From a virus, in the IMG/VR virus record IMGVR_UViG_3300035703_000027, positions 57,190 through 121,189 of that record: DNA of 64,000 nucleotides. The stretch is one strand, 5' to 3'. A program made the position numbers and the translations under genes. Numbering within the stretch: position 1 is the first letter of the stretch; every line of letters begins with the position of its first letter. Of the stretch, positions 5,713-55,463 are shown piece after piece. A model generated the notes under the pieces. That model was given only the letters and a program-made list of their open reading frames with translations. It did no database searches and was not told the origin of the DNA.

Positions 5713-6486
5713 CTATCGGACCGCCTTCAGCTTCGTCTCCAGGCTGGCCGGCAGCCCCTGGGGCTTCGCCTCGCGCAGCGCGAGGGCCTCCGTGCGCGAC
5801 AGCCGGACCCCGCCGCGCACGTGCTCCTCCCAGGCCGCCACCGCGGCCGGCACGTGCGGCGTGATGAGGTCCAGCAGCGCCTGCGCGTACACCTGGATCT
5901 CCTGCTGCGCGTGCGCGTCGATCCGCAGGCTGATGAACCGCAGCAGGTTGTGCAGGTCGATCCGCCAGTACCACTCCGTGTAGAGCGACAGCGGCAGCAC
6001 CAGCCGCGCCAGCTCGCGCGCGACCCCCGCCTCCAGCAGCCCGTCGTAGGCCGCATAGGCCTCCGCGTTCTGCATGGCGAGGGCCGCGATCGCCTCCTGT
6101 GCCACCTCGGGCGGCAGGGCCTCGCCGCTGCCTTGCCGGTTCACCGGGTCCTGCCCCTGGATGCGCCCGGGTTCGGGCTGGTAGAACACGTCCTTGAGCA
6201 CGCTGTAGCGCCCCGACACCTCGTTCACGCTCGCCATCCGGTGCCGCAGCCACTGCCGCGCCACGAACAGCGGCGCCCGCACGTGGAACTTGAACACCAC
6301 CATCTCCAGCGGCGTCGTGTGCTGGTTCCGCACCAGGTAGTCGATCAGGCGCGCGTCCTCGCGCACCGTCTTGGTGCCCTCGCCGTAGCTCACCCGCGCC
6401 GCCTGCACGATCGCGGCGTCGCTCCCCATCACGTCCACGAGCCGCACCAGCCCGTGGTCGAGCACCCGAATCGTCGCCTCGCTCAC
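5713..6486 (-). CDS. thyX: Flavin-dependent thymidylate synthase ThyX
   Basis: A 257-residue protein that converts dUMP to dTMP using FAD, NADPH and methylenetetrahydrofolate, supplying thymidylate for phage DNA. Residues 81-95 (RHRMASVNEVSGRYS) are the ThyX signature RHRxxSxNxxSxRYS. The C-terminal block around DLHNLLRFISLRIDAHAQQEI is also typical. The start is GTG 6486 with GGGGAGGG upstream; an in-frame ATG at 6549 would add 21 residues of unlikely leader. Cyanophages often carry ThyX (known). Length matches the family. Confidence 0.93.
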   Translation of the reverse strand: MSEATIRVLDHGLVRLVDVMGSDAAIVQAARVSYGEGTKTVREDARLIDYLVRNQHTTPLEMVVFKFHVRAPLFVARQWLRHRMASVNEVSGRYSVLKDVFYQPEPGRIQGQDPVNRQGSGEALPPEVAQEAIAALAMQNAEAYAAYDGLLEAGVARELARLVLPLSLYTEWYWRIDLHNLLRFISLRIDAHAQQEIQVYAQALLDLITPHVPAAVAAWEEHVRGGVRLSRTEALALREAKPQGLPASLETKLKAVR

Positions 6487-6630
6487 AGTGTCTTGCCCTC
6501 CCCTGTATGCCGCCGCCAGGTGGTAAACCCGGCGCATCCCGTCATGCACGATGCCCCATCCCTCGTTTGCTGCGTCCGTGCCGCCCGCGCGCAGCGTGCA
6601 CGCGACGTGCGCACGGCGGCCGTGCCGCTT

Positions 6631-9330: not shown

Positions 9331-10147
9331 GGACCACCCCCTTCAGCAGCTCGCCGGCCCGGATGGCCGCCCCGCTGATGGCGTCCCGGGCCGCCCGGCG
9401 GTCCCGCTCCGACACCCAGTACGTCAGCCCGCCGTCGGCGGCCTCCTCCCGGCGCACGGCCAGCGCGGCGAGGTCGGCGTGGCTCTGCGCGGCCTCCGCC
9501 GCCACCGTGCCCAGCAGCGAGCCTTCGAGGTCGCCGTCCGCGAGCCGCACCTCCGCCTCGCGGGCCCCGAGGCCCGGCAGCACCACCTGGTCGGCGTCCA
9601 CGCCGGCCGCCGCGGCGGCCTCGTGCTCCTCCAGCCAGGCGGGCGGCGGCAGCACCGCGAGCCGGTACACCTGCCCGAGCGTGAAGCGCTCCAGCAACCA
9701 GGCCCCCTCGTAGCGCAGCGTCAGCGCGCCCTTGATGGGCGGGGCGTCGTCGTCCCCCGCGTAGGGCTTGAACGCCATCACGGCCAGCTCGTCCCCGTCC
9801 GCCTTGCCGGGCACGGCGCGGCCCATCTCCGCAAGCACCATGAGCACCGCGAGGCGCTCGCCGTCGAGCAGCAGGGGCTGGGGCATCCCGTCGGCGTCGA
9901 GCGGGGCCTCCCGCAGCCGCACCACCTGGTGGTCCCGCGGGGCCGCGAGCGGCAGCCCGCCCTCCTGGGCCAGCGTGCAGCGTGCACGCAGCCCGGGCTC
10001 GTGCCGGCTCTCCTTGAGCCCGTAGGTGCTCGTGATGACCTCCTCCTTGGCCGTCCGGCGGATGCTGGCGCAGCGGGTGATGAACGTCAACAGGTCGGCG
10101 GCGTCCGCCTCGGCGCGCAGGCGCTCGGCGGGAGTCGTGTCAGGCAT
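9320..10147 (-). CDS. Hypothetical protein
   Basis: A 275-residue acidic protein starting at ATG 10147, overlapping the upstream gene's stop by eight bases. The central segment (LRYEGAWLLERFTLGQVYRLAVLPPPAWLEEHEAA) and C-terminal helices (ALAVRREEAADGGLTYWV) are well-behaved protein sequence, but no catalytic motif is visible. It is part of the tightly overlapped 9142-11607 cluster that includes the two zinc-finger paralogues. Confidence 0.6.
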   Translation of the reverse strand: MPDTTPAERLRAEADAADLLTFITRCASIRRTAKEEVITSTYGLKESRHEPGLRARCTLAQEGGLPLAAPRDHQVVRLREAPLDADGMPQPLLLDGERLAVLMVLAEMGRAVPGKADGDELAVMAFKPYAGDDDAPPIKGALTLRYEGAWLLERFTLGQVYRLAVLPPPAWLEEHEAAAAAGVDADQVVLPGLGAREAEVRLADGDLEGSLLGTVAAEAAQSHADLAALAVRREEAADGGLTYWVSERDRRAARDAISGAAIRAGELLKGVVRGA

Positions 10148-13934: not shown

Positions 13935-15047
13935 TTATGCGAGGTTGAGCGGCATGATCAGCGCGAGGGGGCCCGGGTTGTCCGGGTTCGTCACGAACAC
14001 CGGCCGCAGCGGCTCGGAAAACCCCAGCCGCGCCGCCGTCCCGGGCAGCGCGCGCAGGCTGTCGCGCAGGTACTGGCCGTTGAGCCGGATGCTGAAGGGC
14101 GCACCGCCCCAGTCGCAGTCCACCTGCTCCTGGCCGTCGCCCGAGGCCTCGCTGCCCACCTGCACGGTGAGCGCGTCCGCAGCCAGCGTCAGCGTCAGGA
14201 TGCGCGCGTCGAGCCCCGTGGTCACCACGAGCGCGCGCTCCACGCACGCCAGCAGCTCCGCCCGCAACACGTCCACCTCGATGGGCGACGAGGGCGGGAT
14301 GATGGCGGCCACGTTGGGGTAGCCGCCTGCCGCCAACCGGCTCGTCAGGTAGCGGTTGCCCACCGCAAAGCCGACCCGGTTGTCGTCCAGCGCCACGATG
14401 CGCACCTCCGCGGGCGCGCAGTCCTTGATGAGCCGGCCCACCTCCACCATCACGCGGCGTGCCACCACGATCTCGAACGCACCCGGCCCCATGCCCGTCG
14501 CGCGGTAGCGCGCGAGCCGCGAGCCGTCGCACGTGTAGATGGTCAGCTCGTCGTTCGCCAGCGTCAGGCTCGCCGCCGACTTGAAGTCCACGGCCGTCTC
14601 GTCTGCGCAGTAGAGCGTTGAGGCCAGCGCCTCTGCCAGCACGTCCGCCGGCAGCGTCACGCCCCCCTCCGCCGGCGCGTCGGGCACCGCGGGGTAGTCC
14701 TCGGGCGACAGCCCGCGCAGCGTGTACCGGCTGCGCGCGCACGTCAGCCGCGTGCCCGTGCCGTCGCTCTGGAGCGTCAGCTCGGCCTCCGGCGAGGCCG
14801 TGAGCTTGTCCACCAGCGCGCTGAAGGTGCTCCACGGCAGCGTGGCCGCGCCGGCCGCGAGCACCTGGCCGCTCAGCTCGGCGCGCAGCGTCAGGCCGAG
14901 GTCGCTCGCGCGGAACACGATGCGGCCGGACATGTCTGCTTCGAGCACCACGTGCTCCAGGATGGACATGATGCGCGTCCGCCCGGCCACCGGCTTCAGG
15001 TCGCGGACGGCCTCGCGCAAGGCGAGGCCCTTGAGGATGATGTGCAT
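13935..15047 (-). CDS. dnaN: DNA polymerase III beta subunit (sliding clamp)
   Basis: A 370-residue protein of normal bacterial clamp length. The start is ATG 15047 (GAGGTGTCCC upstream); an in-frame ATG 20 codons upstream lacks a site. It shows the three-domain clamp pattern: MHIILKGLALREAVRDLKPV, the middle domain around VTLPADVLAEAL, and a C-terminus ending PVFVTNPDNPGPLALIMPLNLA, where bacterial clamps end in M-P-hydrophobic. It would tether a polymerase to DNA, but no phage polymerase is in the window, so it may recruit the host replicase. Full clamps are rare in phages of this kind. It is regulated through a promoter plus terminator-like leader. Confidence 0.92.
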   Translation of the reverse strand: MHIILKGLALREAVRDLKPVAGRTRIMSILEHVVLEADMSGRIVFRASDLGLTLRAELSGQVLAAGAATLPWSTFSALVDKLTASPEAELTLQSDGTGTRLTCARSRYTLRGLSPEDYPAVPDAPAEGGVTLPADVLAEALASTLYCADETAVDFKSAASLTLANDELTIYTCDGSRLARYRATGMGPGAFEIVVARRVMVEVGRLIKDCAPAEVRIVALDDNRVGFAVGNRYLTSRLAAGGYPNVAAIIPPSSPIEVDVLRAELLACVERALVVTTGLDARILTLTLAADALTVQVGSEASGDGQEQVDCDWGGAPFSIRLNGQYLRDSLRALPGTAARLGFSEPLRPVFVTNPDNPGPLALIMPLNLA

Positions 15048-15079
15048 GGGACACCTCGGGTGAGTGAGGCGGGCCCGAC

Positions 15080-15116
15080 AAAAAAGCCGACCCCCGGCAA
15101 GCGCCAAGGGCCGGCT
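15080..15116 (-). terminator. Terminator/attenuator in the dnaN leader
   Basis: Minus strand: a 9-bp stem (15108-15116 with 15085-15093, one G-T pair) is followed by six T. It lies between the promoter at 15175-15205 and the dnaN start, so transcripts from that promoter must read through it. It may also end read-through from the 15202-15516 gene. Confidence 0.65.
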
Positions 15117-19002: not shown

Positions 19003-19048
19003 CACGGGCTAGGCGGCCCGCTTGGGCCGGATAGGAGGAATGAAAGAC

Positions 19049-20500
19049 ATGTCCGGTCACGTTTCCATGGCCGACTTCGGCGGCCACTTCAGCCACCTGG
19101 GCGACCCCACGGTGAACGGCGGCGCGTTCGCCCGTCACGACGTGGTGAACGCCCTGAACCAGGCCCTGGAGATGCGCAAGTCGCTCGCCACGGGCTCCAA
19201 CCCTGCCCTGGGCTTCCAGGACGGCTCCGCGCTCATCCCGCAGTCGCTCGAAATGACGCTCCAGGTCCTCAGCTTCAAGATGAAGGAGCTGAAGATGTGG
19301 CAGCGCATCAGCAAGGCGCCCGCTCTGGCCATGTTCGAGGAGTACGACGTGCTCCAGCAGTACGGTTCGGACGAGGCGATGTGGATGCAGGAAGGCGGCC
19401 TGCCCGCCGAGGACGGCAGCGTCTACTCGCGTGAGGTCGCACAGGTCAAGTTCCTGGGCACCACCCGCTCCGTCACGCACCCGATGCAAATGGTCCGCAC
19501 CATCACCGGCGTGGACCCCATCATCGAGCGCGAGGACATGAACGGCGTCATGCAGATCCTCCGCAACCTGGAGACGGCGTTCTTCTTCGGCGACGACCGC
19601 GTGAACCCGCTCTCGATCCGCGGCCTCTACCAGCAGGTCCAGATGTCCACCCCGGAGAACATCATCGACCTGCGCGGCAAGCCGCTGACCGACAAGACCC
19701 TCATGGACCTCGACAACGCGTCCGCCGACCAGTACGGCACCCTGGACACGCTGTTCATGTCTAACAAGTCGAAGAACAACCTCAGCCAGATCCTCATGGA
19801 GAACAAGCGCCTGTTCCTCGGGGATATGGGCAAGGACTACACGATGGGCGTGACGGCCAGCAAGTTCGTCGGCAACAACTCCGACGGCATCAGCCTGGAG
19901 TCGCACCAGTTCATCCGTGAGGGCGGCGCGCCCCCGACCACCGTGGCCGACCTCGCCCCCGCGGCGCCGGGTTCGATCACCGTCACCCCCCGCGCTGCGG
20001 GCGTGAACGAGGTCAGCCGCTTCTCCGAGGGCGTGACCGTCACCTACCAGGTGCACGCCATCAACGGCAAGGGCGAGGGCCTCGCCGTCGTCTCCACGGC
20101 CACCACGGTGGACGCGGGCGACGTGGCGGACGTGGTGTTCCCCAACGTGTCGGGCGCGCAGTTCTACCGCATCTACCGCAAGGTGAACGGCGGCAAGATG
20201 CTGCGCCTGATCGAGGTCGGCCGCGGCGCCTCCGCCAACGTGACCTTCACCGACCGCAACCAGTTCATCGAGGGCACCTCGATGGCCTTCGCCCTGATGA
20301 CGGTCGAGGACGCCATCCGCTGGAAGCAGCTCGCCCCGCTGATGAAGCTGCCTCTCGCCACCCTGGACACCCGGACCCGCTGGGCGATCCTGCTCTACGG
20401 CACCATGATGGTCTACCAGCCCCGCAAGCAGTTCGTCTGCATCAACGTGGGCAACGGCGACATCACGCACGACGTGGACATCACCCGCCCCCGCAACTAG
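19049..20500 (+). CDS. Major capsid protein with Ig/FN3-like insertion
   Basis: A 483-residue predicted HK97-fold coat protein. GGAGGA stands nine bases before ATG 19049; an in-frame ATG at 19040 is too close to the site. The N-terminal two thirds include typical capsid text (SLEMTLQVLSFKMKELKMWQ, REVAQVKFLGTTRSVTHPMQ). Residues about 305-404 form an Ig/fibronectin-III-like domain (PGSITVTPRAAG...YRIYRKVNGG...TFTDRN), probably displayed on the capsid surface. The C-terminus returns to capsid sequence. A strong terminator follows, consistent with higher expression than the downstream genes. Confidence 0.88.
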   Translation: MSGHVSMADFGGHFSHLGDPTVNGGAFARHDVVNALNQALEMRKSLATGSNPALGFQDGSALIPQSLEMTLQVLSFKMKELKMWQRISKAPALAMFEEYDVLQQYGSDEAMWMQEGGLPAEDGSVYSREVAQVKFLGTTRSVTHPMQMVRTITGVDPIIEREDMNGVMQILRNLETAFFFGDDRVNPLSIRGLYQQVQMSTPENIIDLRGKPLTDKTLMDLDNASADQYGTLDTLFMSNKSKNNLSQILMENKRLFLGDMGKDYTMGVTASKFVGNNSDGISLESHQFIREGGAPPTTVADLAPAAPGSITVTPRAAGVNEVSRFSEGVTVTYQVHAINGKGEGLAVVSTATTVDAGDVADVVFPNVSGAQFYRIYRKVNGGKMLRLIEVGRGASANVTFTDRNQFIEGTSMAFALMTVEDAIRWKQLAPLMKLPLATLDTRTRWAILLYGTMMVYQPRKQFVCINVGNGDITHDVDITRPRN

Positions 20501-23869: not shown

Positions 23870-25630
23870 ATGGCAACTCGTGGCATCTACTTCGGGGGTC
23901 GCACGATCCTGATCCCCGGCGCATACGCGCAAGGCGACGCCTCCGATCTGGTGGAGATCACCGTCGGGGCGCTCAACATCGTCATGCTGGTCGGCGAGTC
24001 GGAGGGCGGCGAGCCCAACACCCCGCTGGTGTTCAACGCGGCCGGCCAGGACGCCGCCCTGGCCGTCCTGCGCGGCGGGCCCCTGTACGAGGCGGCCCGT
24101 GCCACCTGGAACCCGAGCCCCAGCAGCGCGGGCGCCGACGTGGTGATCGCGGTGCGGGTCAACCCGGCGGTGCGGGCCTCGCACACCTTCCTGAGCGGCG
24201 CGGCGACGCCCGACAACTGCCTGACGGTGCGCGCGCGCGACTACGGCAAGCACGGCAACAACGCCCAGATCCAGATTCTCGCCGGGACAGCCGACGCCGA
24301 CGCCCGCATCGTCAAGGTGCGCAAACTGGAAGATGGTGTGGACCAGACCAGCCCCGAGTTGGGCAAGGTGCTCGGGCTCGCCTACACCGGCAACGGCACG
24401 GCCACGGCCGAGGTCGTCGAGGTGTACGGGGAGCCCCGCCTCGTGCTCTCTGTGACGGGCGCCACCGACGGCTCCGCATCCTTCACCAAGACCCTGACGG
24501 ACGCGGACGTGGCGACGATCGCCAAGCTGGCCGGCTGGCTGAACGCGCAGACGGGCTTCACCACCAAGGTGTTCGGCCACGACACGATGGCCTCCGCGCT
24601 GCTGGACCGCACGGCCGCCCCGGTGCCCCTGAGCAGCACGCCGACCGCCCTGCGGGGTGTCAACGGCGCGATCGCGGACTGGCTGAACCGCTTCAGCCCC
24701 GCCGCGATCGCCGAGGTGCTCACGCTCGACGCGGTGGCGCCGGCCGGCCCCGTGTTCCTCTCGGGCGGCGGCAACGGTGCGCCCACGCTGGTGCACTGGA
24801 AGAACGCCCTCAAGCAGCTCGAAAGCCAGCCCGGGTACTTCCTCGTGCCCTGCACGGGCGACGCGCTGGTGCACCAGGCATGCCTGGAGCACGTGCTGCG
24901 GATGAGCGACATCAAGATCAAGCGGCGCCGGCAGCTCTGGGTCGGTCACGACCCCGGGCTCGTGACCTTCAGCCCGGACGGCACGGTGGACTTCGACGCG
25001 CTGGAGGCCGCCATCTTCACGCTCAACTCCGAGCGCTGCGTCTACGCCACGCCCGGCATCTACCGGGAGTCGGGCGGGGCCAAGACCCTGTTCGGTTCGT
25101 GGCTGCTGGCCGCCGCCCTCGCCGGCATGAAGGCGGGCGGGATGCCGCAGGAGTCGCTCACGTTCAAGTACGTCAGCGCCCTCGCCGTCGAGGGCATCTT
25201 CGACAGCCTGGAGCAGGAGCAGGCCATCCTGGCGGCGGCGACGCCGCTCGTGCCCGTGCCCAACAAGGGCTTCCAGGTGGTGCTCAACCAGTTCGCCCAG
25301 ACCCGCACCACCAACGTGCTGGAGGTCGAACCGTCGGTGCTGCACTGCGCCGACACCCTGCTAACCAACCTGGAGATGGTGCTCGGCGAGAAGTACACGG
25401 GCAAGCCCGTGACCAGTGACGTAACCTTCCGCCTCAACCAGATCAAGGGCGACACCGAGAAGGTGCTCGCCGAGGCCAGGCGCCTCGGGATGCTGGTCGG
25501 GGACGCCAAGGTGACGCGCGTGACCTACCAGAACCGCACCTACGCCGTCGAACTCAAGGCCGCAATCGCCGAGCCAGGCAACTACATCACCATCGCGGCC
25601 AAGTGGCAGGCCGTGCAGGGCTCGGTTTAG
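23870..25630 (+). CDS. Contractile tail sheath protein
   Basis: A 586-residue protein with GGAGGGACCT before ATG 23870. The N-terminus (IPGAYAQGDASDL, then GALNIVMLVGESEGG) and the C-terminal domain (QIKGDTEKVLAEARRLGMLVGDAKVTRVTYQNRTYAVELKAAIAEPGNYITI) are characteristic of sheath proteins. Sheath subunits wrap the tube and contract to drive it through the envelope. Its presence defines a myovirus morphology. The tube gene follows. Confidence 0.85.
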   Translation: MATRGIYFGGRTILIPGAYAQGDASDLVEITVGALNIVMLVGESEGGEPNTPLVFNAAGQDAALAVLRGGPLYEAARATWNPSPSSAGADVVIAVRVNPAVRASHTFLSGAATPDNCLTVRARDYGKHGNNAQIQILAGTADADARIVKVRKLEDGVDQTSPELGKVLGLAYTGNGTATAEVVEVYGEPRLVLSVTGATDGSASFTKTLTDADVATIAKLAGWLNAQTGFTTKVFGHDTMASALLDRTAAPVPLSSTPTALRGVNGAIADWLNRFSPAAIAEVLTLDAVAPAGPVFLSGGGNGAPTLVHWKNALKQLESQPGYFLVPCTGDALVHQACLEHVLRMSDIKIKRRRQLWVGHDPGLVTFSPDGTVDFDALEAAIFTLNSERCVYATPGIYRESGGAKTLFGSWLLAAALAGMKAGGMPQESLTFKYVSALAVEGIFDSLEQEQAILAAATPLVPVPNKGFQVVLNQFAQTRTTNVLEVEPSVLHCADTLLTNLEMVLGEKYTGKPVTSDVTFRLNQIKGDTEKVLAEARRLGMLVGDAKVTRVTYQNRTYAVELKAAIAEPGNYITIAAKWQAVQGSV

Positions 25631-52117: not shown

Positions 52118-52154
52118 TGGCGTGCGTTCCGGCGATTTCTGAATTGTAAAGACG

Positions 52155-52533: not shown

Positions 52534-52725
52534 ATGGCGGCCACGGCGCCGGAGTTTTCGGCGCTGGTGGCGCAGGCCGAGGGCCTGCGGGCGTCGCTCG
52601 CGGCGCTGGAGGCGCGGCTGGTGGTCGCGGCTGCCACGCACGGCGTGAAGGGCATCCACCGGCTGGCGGAGGCCACCGGGGTGCCAGCCCGGGTGGTGCG
52701 GCGCGTGCTGCGGGAGGGGGCATGA
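52534..52725 (+). CDS. Small HTH protein
   Basis: A 63-residue reading starting at ATG 52534; earlier in-frame starts (52426, 52456) have no ribosome site and would cover the operator-like repeats. The C-terminal segment (HGVKGIHRLAEATGVPARVVRRVLREG) is a helix-turn-helix, preceded by a helix (FSALVAQAEGLRASLAALEARL) that could dimerise. It overlaps the O-like gene by four bases and may regulate replication or be a co-factor. Confidence 0.55.
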   Translation: MAATAPEFSALVAQAEGLRASLAALEARLVVAAATHGVKGIHRLAEATGVPARVVRRVLREGA

Positions 52726-53603
52726 TGCGTCGCACGGCCTTCACGCGGATGCCCAACGAGCTGCTCGACGCCCTGGCGGCCGGCCGGCTGAACGCGCGCG
52801 AGATGCGCGTGGTGCTTGCCGTGCTGCGCCGCAGCGCCGGCTACAACCGCGGGCAGGCCGTCATGGCCACCCATGAGGTGGCCGCGGCGGCCGGGATGGA
52901 CCCCCAGCAGGTGCGGCTGGTGCTCGCGCGCCTCGTGGCGCTCGGGGCCCTGCACGTCACGGGCACGACGACGGGCAAGGCGCCCCTGACGCTGCACCTG
53001 CACCCGCCGGCCGCCTGGCGCGACGCCGCGCCGCCGGCGGCGGCCTCCGCCGATGCCGGTGGGTATGGGCCCGGGTATGGCGAAGGGTATGCCGGGGGGT
53101 ATGCACCCGGGTATGCGCCCGGGTATGGCGACGGGTATGCGCCCGGGTATGAAACGCAACAAAACGCAGGCCCGAAACCCGCGCCGTCAGGCGATCGCGG
53201 CGAGCCTAAAGACAAGAAAGACAGAAAAACAGAAAAACAGAAAGACATGTCCCCCACACCCCCAGGGGGGGGTGGTGTGCTTTACCGCGGTCACGACGAT
53301 GTGGACACGCCCCCGTCGCTGGCTGCCTGCAAGGCGGCGTTCGACGCCTGGAAGCGAATCGTCGGGGCGGCGGTGCTGCCGCGCTGGCGTTACGACGACA
53401 TCCGCAACGCGGTGGAGGCCTCCGGCCTGACGCCGGAGGCCTGGGCCGCGCAGGTGCAGGCGCTGGTGGCCGAGCGCCGCGCGCGGGAGCCCCGCTGGCA
53501 GGTGACGAGCCCGGCGTATTTCCACCGCGCGGTGCTGGAGCGCGCCGGCGGCGTGGCGACGGCCGAACCCGAGGACGACTACTATGCCCGATTTGACGAC
53601 TGA
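52722..53603 (+). CDS. O-like replication initiator with in-gene origin
   Basis: A 293-residue protein. The N-terminal domain (RMPNELLDALAAGRLNAREMRVVLAVLRRSAGYNR) matches the phage replication protein O winged-helix domain that binds origin iterons. Residues 113-145 are a GY[AG]x tetrapeptide repeat encoded by the eight 12-bp iterons. A Lys/Asp-rich stretch follows, encoded by an A-rich tract, then a C-terminal domain (ACKAAFDAWKRIVGAAVLPRW) likely to contact the helicase loader. This reproduces the lambda O/ori arrangement. Confidence 0.8.
   Translation: MMRRTAFTRMPNELLDALAAGRLNAREMRVVLAVLRRSAGYNRGQAVMATHEVAAAAGMDPQQVRLVLARLVALGALHVTGTTTGKAPLTLHLHPPAAWRDAAPPAAASADAGGYGPGYGEGYAGGYAPGYAPGYGDGYAPGYETQQNAGPKPAPSGDRGEPKDKKDRKTEKQKDMSPTPPGGGGVLYRGHDDVDTPPSLAACKAAFDAWKRIVGAAVLPRWRYDDIRNAVEASGLTPEAWAAQVQALVAERRAREPRWQVTSPAYFHRAVLERAGGVATAEPEDDYYARFDD
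53061..53156 (+). repeat. Eight 12-bp iterons (GGGTATG core)
   Basis: Eight tandem 12-bp units, each starting GGGTATG and followed by a variable five bases, without gaps. The A-rich tract at 53207-53248 (about two thirds A, otherwise G and C) lies 50 bases downstream and could be the unwinding element. Predicted origin of replication. Confidence 0.7.
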
Positions 53604-54492
53604 CGACGGCTTCTTGGGGCTGCCCTGGGTGCGCGAGGGGCTCGCGTCGCGTTCCGGCGTGCCGGACTGCGCGCTGTGCGGGCCGCGCCCGCTGGAGGTG
53701 CTCATGGTGCTCCAGGGGCGCGAGATGAAGATGCGCAAGCTGTGCGAGCACCAGGAGGCCGAGCTGGCGCAGCGGGCGGCTGCGATGCAGGCGCGCTCCG
53801 CGCTGGCGGAGTGGCAGGCGCGCCATGGGCGCTACGCGGTGCCGGCCGACTTTGCGGGGCGCACGCTCGACGACGTGGATCCGTCCTGTGCGGGCTCGCA
53901 GCGCGGCCTGGCCTACGCCCGGTACTACCTCGACCACTGGGACACGCTGCGCGCCGAGGGCGCCGGGATGGTGTTCCACGGGCTCGCCGAGAGCGCCCAC
54001 GGCAACCCGGGCGGCATGGGCTGCGGCAAGACCCTCGTCGCCACCGCGATCGCGGCGATGCTGGAGGCGCGCGGGGAGTCGGTGGCTTACGTGAAGTGCC
54101 GCGACCTCGCCGACGCCATGCGCGACTTTGCGAGCGGGGCGCGCGAGGCGGTGCTCGCCGCGATGCGCGGGGCGTCCCTGCTGGTGCTCGACGAGATGGT
54201 CAACGAGCACGAGACGGCCTACACGGCCCAGGCCATCATCGCGACGCTGGACCACCGCTACGAGGCGGCGCGGCCCACGCTCGTGACGACGAACTTCGAG
54301 CGCCGGGCGATCGGGCGGCACTACGAGCGGGTGCTGACCAAAGGTTCAGACGGGCACACGCCCGCGATCGCGAAGGTGATGGCGGGCCGCATGATGTCCC
54401 GCCTGACGCCGCCCCGGGCGATGTGGATCCCCTTCGACGGCCCCGACCAGCGCCTTGCACGGCGCCGGAGCTGGGGCCCTGACCACGGCTGA
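53584..54492 (+). CDS. DnaC/IstB-like helicase loader
   Basis: A 302-residue AAA+ protein overlapping the O-like gene. Walker A is GNPGGMGCGKT (140-150), Walker B LLVLDE (199-204), sensor TTN (235-237), followed by the SRL-type motif near MMSRLTPP, as in DnaC-type loaders. An N-terminal Cys cluster (CALC...C) recalls the zinc site of DnaC/IstB relatives. It would load the host replicative helicase at the iteron origin, like lambda P with O. Confidence 0.85.
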   Translation: MPDLTTDDGFLGLPWVREGLASRSGVPDCALCGPRPLEVLMVLQGREMKMRKLCEHQEAELAQRAAAMQARSALAEWQARHGRYAVPADFAGRTLDDVDPSCAGSQRGLAYARYYLDHWDTLRAEGAGMVFHGLAESAHGNPGGMGCGKTLVATAIAAMLEARGESVAYVKCRDLADAMRDFASGAREAVLAAMRGASLLVLDEMVNEHETAYTAQAIIATLDHRYEAARPTLVTTNFERRAIGRHYERVLTKGSDGHTPAIAKVMAGRMMSRLTPPRAMWIPFDGPDQRLARRRSWGPDHG

Positions 54493-54504: not shown

Positions 54505-54714
54505 ATGACGCAAAGAGACGGAAGCGGCGGCGACGAGCGCCGGCGCGAGATCGGGCGGCTCGGGGGCGAGGCCACCAAGCGGACGCTGGGGCCGGCGCAC
54601 TTCAGCCGCATCGGCAAGAAGGGCGGCCAGGCGCTGCTCGCGGCCCGCGGCCGGGACTACTACGCGGCCATCGGCCGCCTCGGCGGCAAGCGCCGCAAGG
54701 AGGAGCAGGCATGA
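54505..54714 (+). CDS. Small KGG-repeat protein
   Basis: A 69-residue basic protein starting at ATG 54505 (AAAGGAGCCAGGC). It carries GRLGGEATKR, GKKGGQALLA and GRLGGKRRK, i.e. the KGG/GxxGG repeats known from stress-induced small proteins. Basic composition suggests nucleic-acid binding. It overlaps the SSB gene by four bases. Confidence 0.65.
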   Translation: MTQRDGSGGDERRREIGRLGGEATKRTLGPAHFSRIGKKGGQALLAARGRDYYAAIGRLGGKRRKEEQA

Positions 54715-55463
54715 GCTTGAACCTGGTGGCGCTCGCAGGGCGCCTGGTGGCATCCCCGGAGCCGTTGGCGCGCCCGACGGGCGAGACGGTGGGGGCCCGC
54801 TTCATCCTGGAGACGGAGGAGCTGATTCCCGCGGAGGACGGCGGCCACAAGACGGTGGTCCACCACGCCCATGTGCGGGTGCTGGAGGCCGCGGCCGTGC
54901 CCGCCCTGGTGGCGATGCCCGCCGGCGCCACGCTGTGCGTCGTGGGCGTGTTCTTCGTGCACGAGTGGCTGACGCCGACGGGCGAGAAGAAGCGCGCGAC
55001 CTACATCCGGGCGGAGCGCTGGGGGGCGACCCTCAACCTCGCCGTCATCAAGGGCAACCTTGGGGCGGACCCCGAGTACAAGCCACTGGGCGACACGGGC
55101 CGCCACAAGGCCAGCGTCCGGCTCGCGACGAACCCCTACCTGCGCGACCCGGAGACGGGCGAGGGCTCGGACGAGCTGACGCACTGGGTGGGCGCGGACT
55201 GCTTCTGGCAGTCGAAGGCCAAGGCGATCGCAGACCACTGCGCCAAGGGCCAGGAGCTGACGGTCGTGGGCCGCTACATCGAGGAGGTGTACACGCCCAA
55301 GGAGGGCGGCGCCGCCAAGCCCTACGCGTTCGTGAAGGTGGAGCAGTTCGACTTCAGCCGCGGCGGCGCCAAGCAGGCCAGCGCCCCGGCCCCGGACGGC
55401 CAGCCGCCCCGCTACGACCGTGAGCCGGCCCCGCCGCCGGAGTTCGACGACATCCCGTTCTGA
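54711..55463 (+). CDS. ssb: Single-stranded DNA-binding protein with two OB folds
   Basis: A 250-residue SSB. Residues 1-103 form a first OB fold (LNLVALAGRLVASPEPLARPTGE...) and about 104-220 a second (LNLAVIKGNLGADPEYKPLGDTG...CAKGQELTVVGRYIEEVYTPKEGG). The tail is disordered and ends EFDDIPF, the acidic tip that binds partner proteins. Most SSBs have one OB fold per chain; two per chain is typical of Deinococcus-Thermus. It protects single strands at the fork. Confidence 0.85.
   Translation: MSLNLVALAGRLVASPEPLARPTGETVGARFILETEELIPAEDGGHKTVVHHAHVRVLEAAAVPALVAMPAGATLCVVGVFFVHEWLTPTGEKKRATYIRAERWGATLNLAVIKGNLGADPEYKPLGDTGRHKASVRLATNPYLRDPETGEGSDELTHWVGADCFWQSKAKAIADHCAKGQELTVVGRYIEEVYTPKEGGAAKPYAFVKVEQFDFSRGGAKQASAPAPDGQPPRYDREPAPPPEFDDIPF

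Follow-up and report, generated by a model that had tools for sequence, protein, structure and literature searches.

The replication origin of phage lambda is the textbook case of a dimeric O protein and inverted-repeat iterons placed beside an A-rich element. In detail, lambda O binds its 19-bp inverted-repeat iterons as dimers and opens the neighbouring A+T-rich region (PMC5043065). The O proteins of both lambda and the Stx phages are dimers and O proteins bind the single-stranded DNA of the A+T-rich region, while the number of iterons varies, with four in lambda and six in Stx phages (PMC7466680). Plasmid initiators bind direct iterons as monomers, and the contrast between dimers on inverted sites and monomers on direct sites has been used to explain differences in regulation (PMC5043065). 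A further arrangement is that of gp38 and oriL of the Bacillus phage SPP1, where direct repeats and an A+T-rich unwinding element are located within the gene of the origin-binding protein, together with a helicase loader (PMC6316719).

The DNA analysed here (hereafter the window) is a stretch of 64 kb, which corresponds to positions 57190-121189 of a virus record with a length of 121,189 bases. It contains an O-like initiator gene of the Phage_rep_O family (52722..53603, plus strand; 293 aa), as indicated by PF04492, phrog_678 and an AlphaFold2 model. Residues 6-85 match PF04492 in the Pfam search (E 7.5e-11; 42.8 bits vs. a cut-off of 28.7) and the protein is assigned to phrog_678, replication initiation O-like, in PHROGs (E 7.4e-11), while none of the PDB chains matches it by sequence. 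The AlphaFold2 model, whose input included 32 relatives, predicts a winged helix at residues 12-93 (pLDDT of the block mostly >90), disorder over most of residues 113-194 and a helical C-terminal domain at residues 200-274. The matches of this model in the fold comparison are winged-helix proteins, and among viral models they are annotated as "Bacteriophage lambda, GpO, N-terminal" and as replisome organizers. Based on the Pfam match (residues 6-85) and the fold matches, the coding DNA of the winged-helix DNA-binding domain is placed at 52737..53000 on the plus strand (approximately residues 6-93).

The end of the O-like gene is overlapped by a gene for a DnaC-like AAA+ helicase loader (53584..54492, plus strand; phrog_50, E 1.5e-25; PF01695, E 5.1e-8), and a single-strand DNA-binding protein (SSB) gene is located further on (54711..55463, plus strand; PF00436, E 7.8e-16; phrog_44). 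An initiator-type domain with a DnaC-like loader in the next gene had been proposed in the preliminary description of this DNA, and both parts are borne out by the PF04492 (E 7.5e-11) and phrog_50 (E 1.5e-25) matches.

Within the O-like gene, eight exact GGGTATG cores are arranged head to tail at distances of 12 bp (53061..53151, plus strand), and these are the proposed initiator-binding iterons. The cores start at 53061, 53073, 53085, 53097, 53109, 53121, 53133 and 53145, which corresponds to seven full 12-bp units and an eighth core, so that the eight 12-bp GGGTATG units previously described inside this gene hold as eight exact cores with seven complete units. Across the eight copies none of the seven core columns varies, two wobble positions among them, and the five spacer columns are only 43-71% conserved. 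On either strand of the 64-kb window GGGTATG is found in the array only, and the remaining 57 kb of the 121-kb record show three scattered single copies. Seven GGGTATGN5GGGTATG pairs were found against 0.10 expected by chance, and none of 100 shuffles reached seven. The array encodes residues 114-144 of 293, in the predicted disordered linker between the winged helix and the C-terminal helices, and the A-rich tract described below also falls into the DNA for this linker.

Neither inverted GGGTATG copies nor a dyad signal were detected at the array in the both-strand search and the arm-based dyad test, respectively. In this test the window has one dyad site vs. 1.88 in shuffles (P 0.92), which is tied for the lowest count of the survey described below. 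All dyad counts come from the arm-based test, since an even-length 18-bp test misses odd-length palindromes, including those of lambda.

The array is followed by a spacer of about 55 bp (53152..53206, plus strand), which holds two AAACGCA copies 10 bp apart, and then by an A-rich tract, the proposed DNA unwinding element (53207..53248, plus strand). No other 42-mer of the 121-kb record is as rich in A as the tract (28 A in 42 bases) or has as high a content of any single base, the next best having 20 of 42. The claim that a 42-base A-rich tract, the sole one of its kind, comes after the array is thus confirmed for the whole record; the tract begins about 56 nt past the last core. Five tandem AAA(G/A)ACA octamers compose it (at 53208, 53217, 53225, 53233 and 53241), and it holds three AAAGACA copies, as many as the rest of the 64 kb with both strands counted.

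A C-run/G-run stretch capable of forming a hairpin (TCCCCCACACCCCCAGGGGGGGGTGGTGTG; 53249..53280, plus strand; fold -11.6 kcal/mol) is located just past the tract. Similar C-run/G-run sequences directly follow the A-rich tract in L083, L085, L134, L172 and L181. As a significant element the hairpin was discarded: its z of -0.68 is not significant alone, and the trend exists across the family only, where it is weak (mean z -0.67 vs. 0.0, P 0.015).

The locus shares several characters with the lambda origin. Both have a Phage_rep_O initiator, an intragenic position between the DNA-binding and C-terminal domains, a tract of about 40 nt which is A-rich on the coding strand and includes AAAGACA, and a loader gene directly downstream. 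The array lengths are also alike, i.e., 85 bp for the four iterons of lambda and 91 bp in the window. The lambda O/ori layout that had been suggested for this region (winged helix, repeats, A-rich tract, C-terminal domain and loader gene) is well supported by homology and by the 62-gene survey. On the other hand, lambda has 19-bp inverted repeats, whereas the window has 12-bp direct units without dyad; the iterons of lambda abut the A-rich tract (4 bp), whereas the gap in the window is 56 bp; and the loader is DnaC-like instead of P. The genome, represented by a record of 121 kb or more, also includes a sheath-like gene. The differences in orientation and spacing had escaped the same preliminary description, which spoke of twice as many iterons as in lambda; this count is not retained: the four inverted repeats of lambda are eight half-sites in 85 bp, compared with eight units of one direction in 91 bp, so the number of half-site-sized elements is the same and not doubled.

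Lambdoid phages of the mEpX1 type, which combine O with DnaC, and related prophage O genes resemble the window in having a DnaC-like loader after O and repeats and an A-rich tract at the same place, but their iterons, of the TGTCTC..GAGACA type, measure about 24 bp and contain inner dyads. SPP1 oriL is similar in layout, with direct repeats and an unwinding element inside the initiator gene and a helicase loader, but SPP1 encodes the DnaB-type helicase gp40, whereas no DnaB match exists in the record of the window. The iteron plasmids F, P1 and RK2 also carry direct-repeat iterons next to an A+T-rich region. Their initiators are winged-helix proteins of other families (Rep_3/RepA type), whereas Pfam matched only PF04492 here.

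O genes were surveyed in 61 non-redundant relatives among the matches listed (viral and bacterial contigs and cultured phages), with lambda as the control. Nearly all surveyed O genes have repeats between the winged helix and the C-terminal part, and after them an A-rich tract composed around AAAGA(A/C)A. The iterons of the relatives are typically inverted repeats of 15-20 bp, e.g., TGTCTCTAAACCAGAGACA or TGACACCAAAACGGTGTCA, which recur about every 24 bp; the dominant direct-repeat lag is 22-25 bp in most relatives, and inverted half-sites are most often spaced 12 bp apart. The family mean is 3.16 dyad sites per O gene vs. 1.52 in shuffles. Half-sites are therefore encountered about every 12 bp in both cases, with an orientation which alternates in the relatives and is constant in the eight units of the window. 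The gap between repeats and A-rich motif has a family median of 5 bp, compared with 4 bp in lambda and 56 bp in the window. The core that had been called new is not entirely so, as GGGTAT is one base off the GGGTAA half-sites of some enterobacterial-type O genes (L205, L225 and L234). Direct repeats with a melting element and a loader are already known from SPP1; what is new is the pairing of 12-bp units that are all direct with a PF04492 initiator, of which the 61 relatives listed offer no example.

In 50 non-redundant O genes, the DNA past the DNA-binding domain (16.5 kb) contains 124 copies of the AAAGA(A/C)A motif vs. 9 in the remaining 24 kb of these genes, and 48 of the 50 have the motif. 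It is distributed over all three reading frames (74/25/25), which is an indication of a signal at the DNA level and not of a protein motif. No other feature ties the window more strongly to the known origin family than the AAAGA(A/C)A tract. Even O genes that are very divergent (e.g., L087, L171, L173, L175, L178 and L262) repeat the motif in their A-rich tracts, although their iteron sequences are unrelated. The common motif suggests that a contact with the single strand is conserved, a notion resembling that of the DnaA-trios.

The O-like gene of L179 (Klebsiella grimontii) has about 100 extra residues with the motif YIYVFAESESGPVKIGFTTRK between the winged helix and the repeats; this insert may resemble one of the GIY-YIG type. 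Outside the O genes, a DUF6291 gene of L035 and L049 contains three to four 12-bp GGGGGTATGCAA direct repeats (in L035 the array is near 571-601) and then an A-rich AAAGAAGAAG tract. This is the layout of the window in a family not known here as an initiator. In L052, a 12-bp array of GGGTATGGTAGT followed by a AAAGAGAAAGA tract is found on the reverse strand near 9512-9542. L052 was considered as a second example and rejected, because the short ORF that contains its array lacks an O domain and has structural genes as neighbours.

Whether the array is maintained as DNA or as protein was approached through its codons. Wobble positions are changed in 0 of 16 cases in the cores and in 6 of 14 in the spacers (Fisher P 0.005), and the core codons are uncommon in the genes of the window, with TAT accounting for 8.4% of Tyr and GGG for 29% of Gly in a genome of 71% GC. 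As an empirical control, 92 coding GGNTAYG runs with units 12 bp apart were collected among the viral-contig matches listed. Their wobble bases are invariant in 73 of the 92 runs; codon uniformity has thus no diagnostic value by itself, as young tandem repeats share it. For the same reason a codon-based probability of 1.3e-13, which assumes independent draws, was dropped as a measure of significance. The 12-bp GGGTATG pattern was likewise abandoned as an origin diagnostic, as at least 78 viral loci have three such cores and almost all of these are unrelated coding repeats (e.g., PPGM portal tails).

The commonness of coding Gly-Tyr 12-bp repeats with uniform codons in viral contigs also agrees with an alternative in which the array is a Gly-Tyr linker at the protein level, derived from tandem duplication, with the true binding sites elsewhere near the A-rich tract, e.g., in the 55-bp spacer. 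The two AAACGCA copies of the spacer would suit it, as would the distance of the array from the A-rich tract, i.e., 56 bp compared with about 5 bp for the iterons of the family. However, the cores of the window are exact while its spacers are the most diverged (0.61) of the 92 comparable arrays. The array is written with GGG and TAT despite the 71% GC of the genome, whereas almost every other comparable high-GC array uses TAC for Tyr, and the A content downstream of the array is by far the highest among the controls (28 of 40). Furthermore, the cores sit exactly at the iteron position of the relatives, and no dyad iterons were seen in the scanned stretch 53056-53181. A mere linker is thus considered improbable, and the evidence for selection on the array at the DNA level is moderate. 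Close relatives with the same repeats were not found when the O protein, the loader and the portal protein were searched in viral contigs, and an alignment search of genome contigs for O relatives gave 12 distant loci.

Since repeats and an AAAGA(A/C)A tract occur at the same place in nearly all members of the family, an intragenic origin of the lambda type is the best reading of the locus, and it is probably from such an origin that this large myovirus replicates. The lack of dyad iterons and the distance to the A-rich tract count against this reading. The O-like protein would use its winged helix to bind the eight GGGTATG units, which lie in the gene that encodes it, and the resulting nucleoprotein array would open the A-rich AAA(G/A)ACA tract close by. 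Through its C-terminal part the protein would then recruit the DnaC-like loader encoded by the next gene, this loader would place the host DnaB helicase, and the host polymerase would copy the DNA. We infer the binding, the opening and the loading, and also that replication would start here. Searches of the record for DnaB (DnaB_C), PolIII-alpha and PolA gave no family match; they concern these families, in a record that is possibly incomplete. This result fits an initiator which recruits the helicase and polymerase of the host.

ThyX, a DNA polymerase III beta clamp and RecT are also encoded (window 5716-6552 and 13938-15110, both on the minus strand; L169 10948-11874, minus strand). The virus thus has its own clamp and a lambda-type initiator, yet no replicative helicase or polymerase was matched in the record. 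An SU10-like major capsid protein and a weak sheath match (window 19022-20500 and 23870-25630) indicate a large genome of the myovirus type; most known O/ori phages are of about 40-50 kb.

The array could instead be an initiator-binding site that mainly controls the expression of replication genes or late replication, with the main origin elsewhere in the genome. A precedent for a second origin exists in SPP1, where two origins are found about 13 kb apart (PMC6316719), and upstream of the gene the stability falls slightly below that of the A-rich tract in two stretches, at 52134 and 52262. The cumulative GC skew has no turning point at the array, as this alternative would allow, but the skew speaks neither for nor against origin activity. 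Against it, no second GGGTATG cluster exists in the record, and the easily melting stretches at 52134 and 52262 lack a GGGTATG array and would fit an ordinary regulatory region. We therefore regard an origin elsewhere as very unlikely, and the intragenic origin at the array is retained.

The mode of binding at this origin is a separate question. Because all units point in the same direction and have half of the usual period, it is moderately likely that the initiator binds head to tail, with one subunit per 12-bp unit, and not as dimers on inverted repeats. By analogy to plasmid iterons, head-to-tail binding would be the more natural model given the direct orientation. If the protein were still dimeric, one dimer could occupy two adjacent direct units (24 bp) in an assembly which is essentially lambda-like. 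Such an arrangement is in line with the dimeric O proteins of lambda and Stx phages (PMC7466680). The array itself offers some signs of a longer period, as its 24-bp and 36-bp readings score 112 and 128 vs. 77 for the 12-bp reading and lag 24 shows slightly more recurrences of exact 7-mers (19) than lag 12 does (15). All core columns, however, are identical every 12 bp, and a symmetric dimer misfits two direct half-sites unless it has a flexible connection. For these reasons the dimeric arrangement is held to be possible but rather unlikely.

Head-to-tail binding leads to the more tentative proposal, perhaps true and perhaps not, that an initiator of the lambda family has switched from dimers on inverted repeats to head-to-tail 12-bp direct units, possibly as a filament. 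If so, the locus would be an evolutionary bridge from the lambda type to the plasmid or SPP1 type, in which the same 12-bp comb of half-sites is kept and every second half-site is flipped.

Should this switch be true, it would show that the contrast between dimers on inverted sites and monomers on direct sites can be crossed within one protein family. The origin of the window would then be a natural system for testing how the orientation and spacing of sites govern origin opening. Given the conservation of AAAGA(A/C)A in the melting elements of very divergent O genes, despite unrelated iterons, the idea that single-stranded DNA is contacted in a sequence-specific manner can be put to the test.
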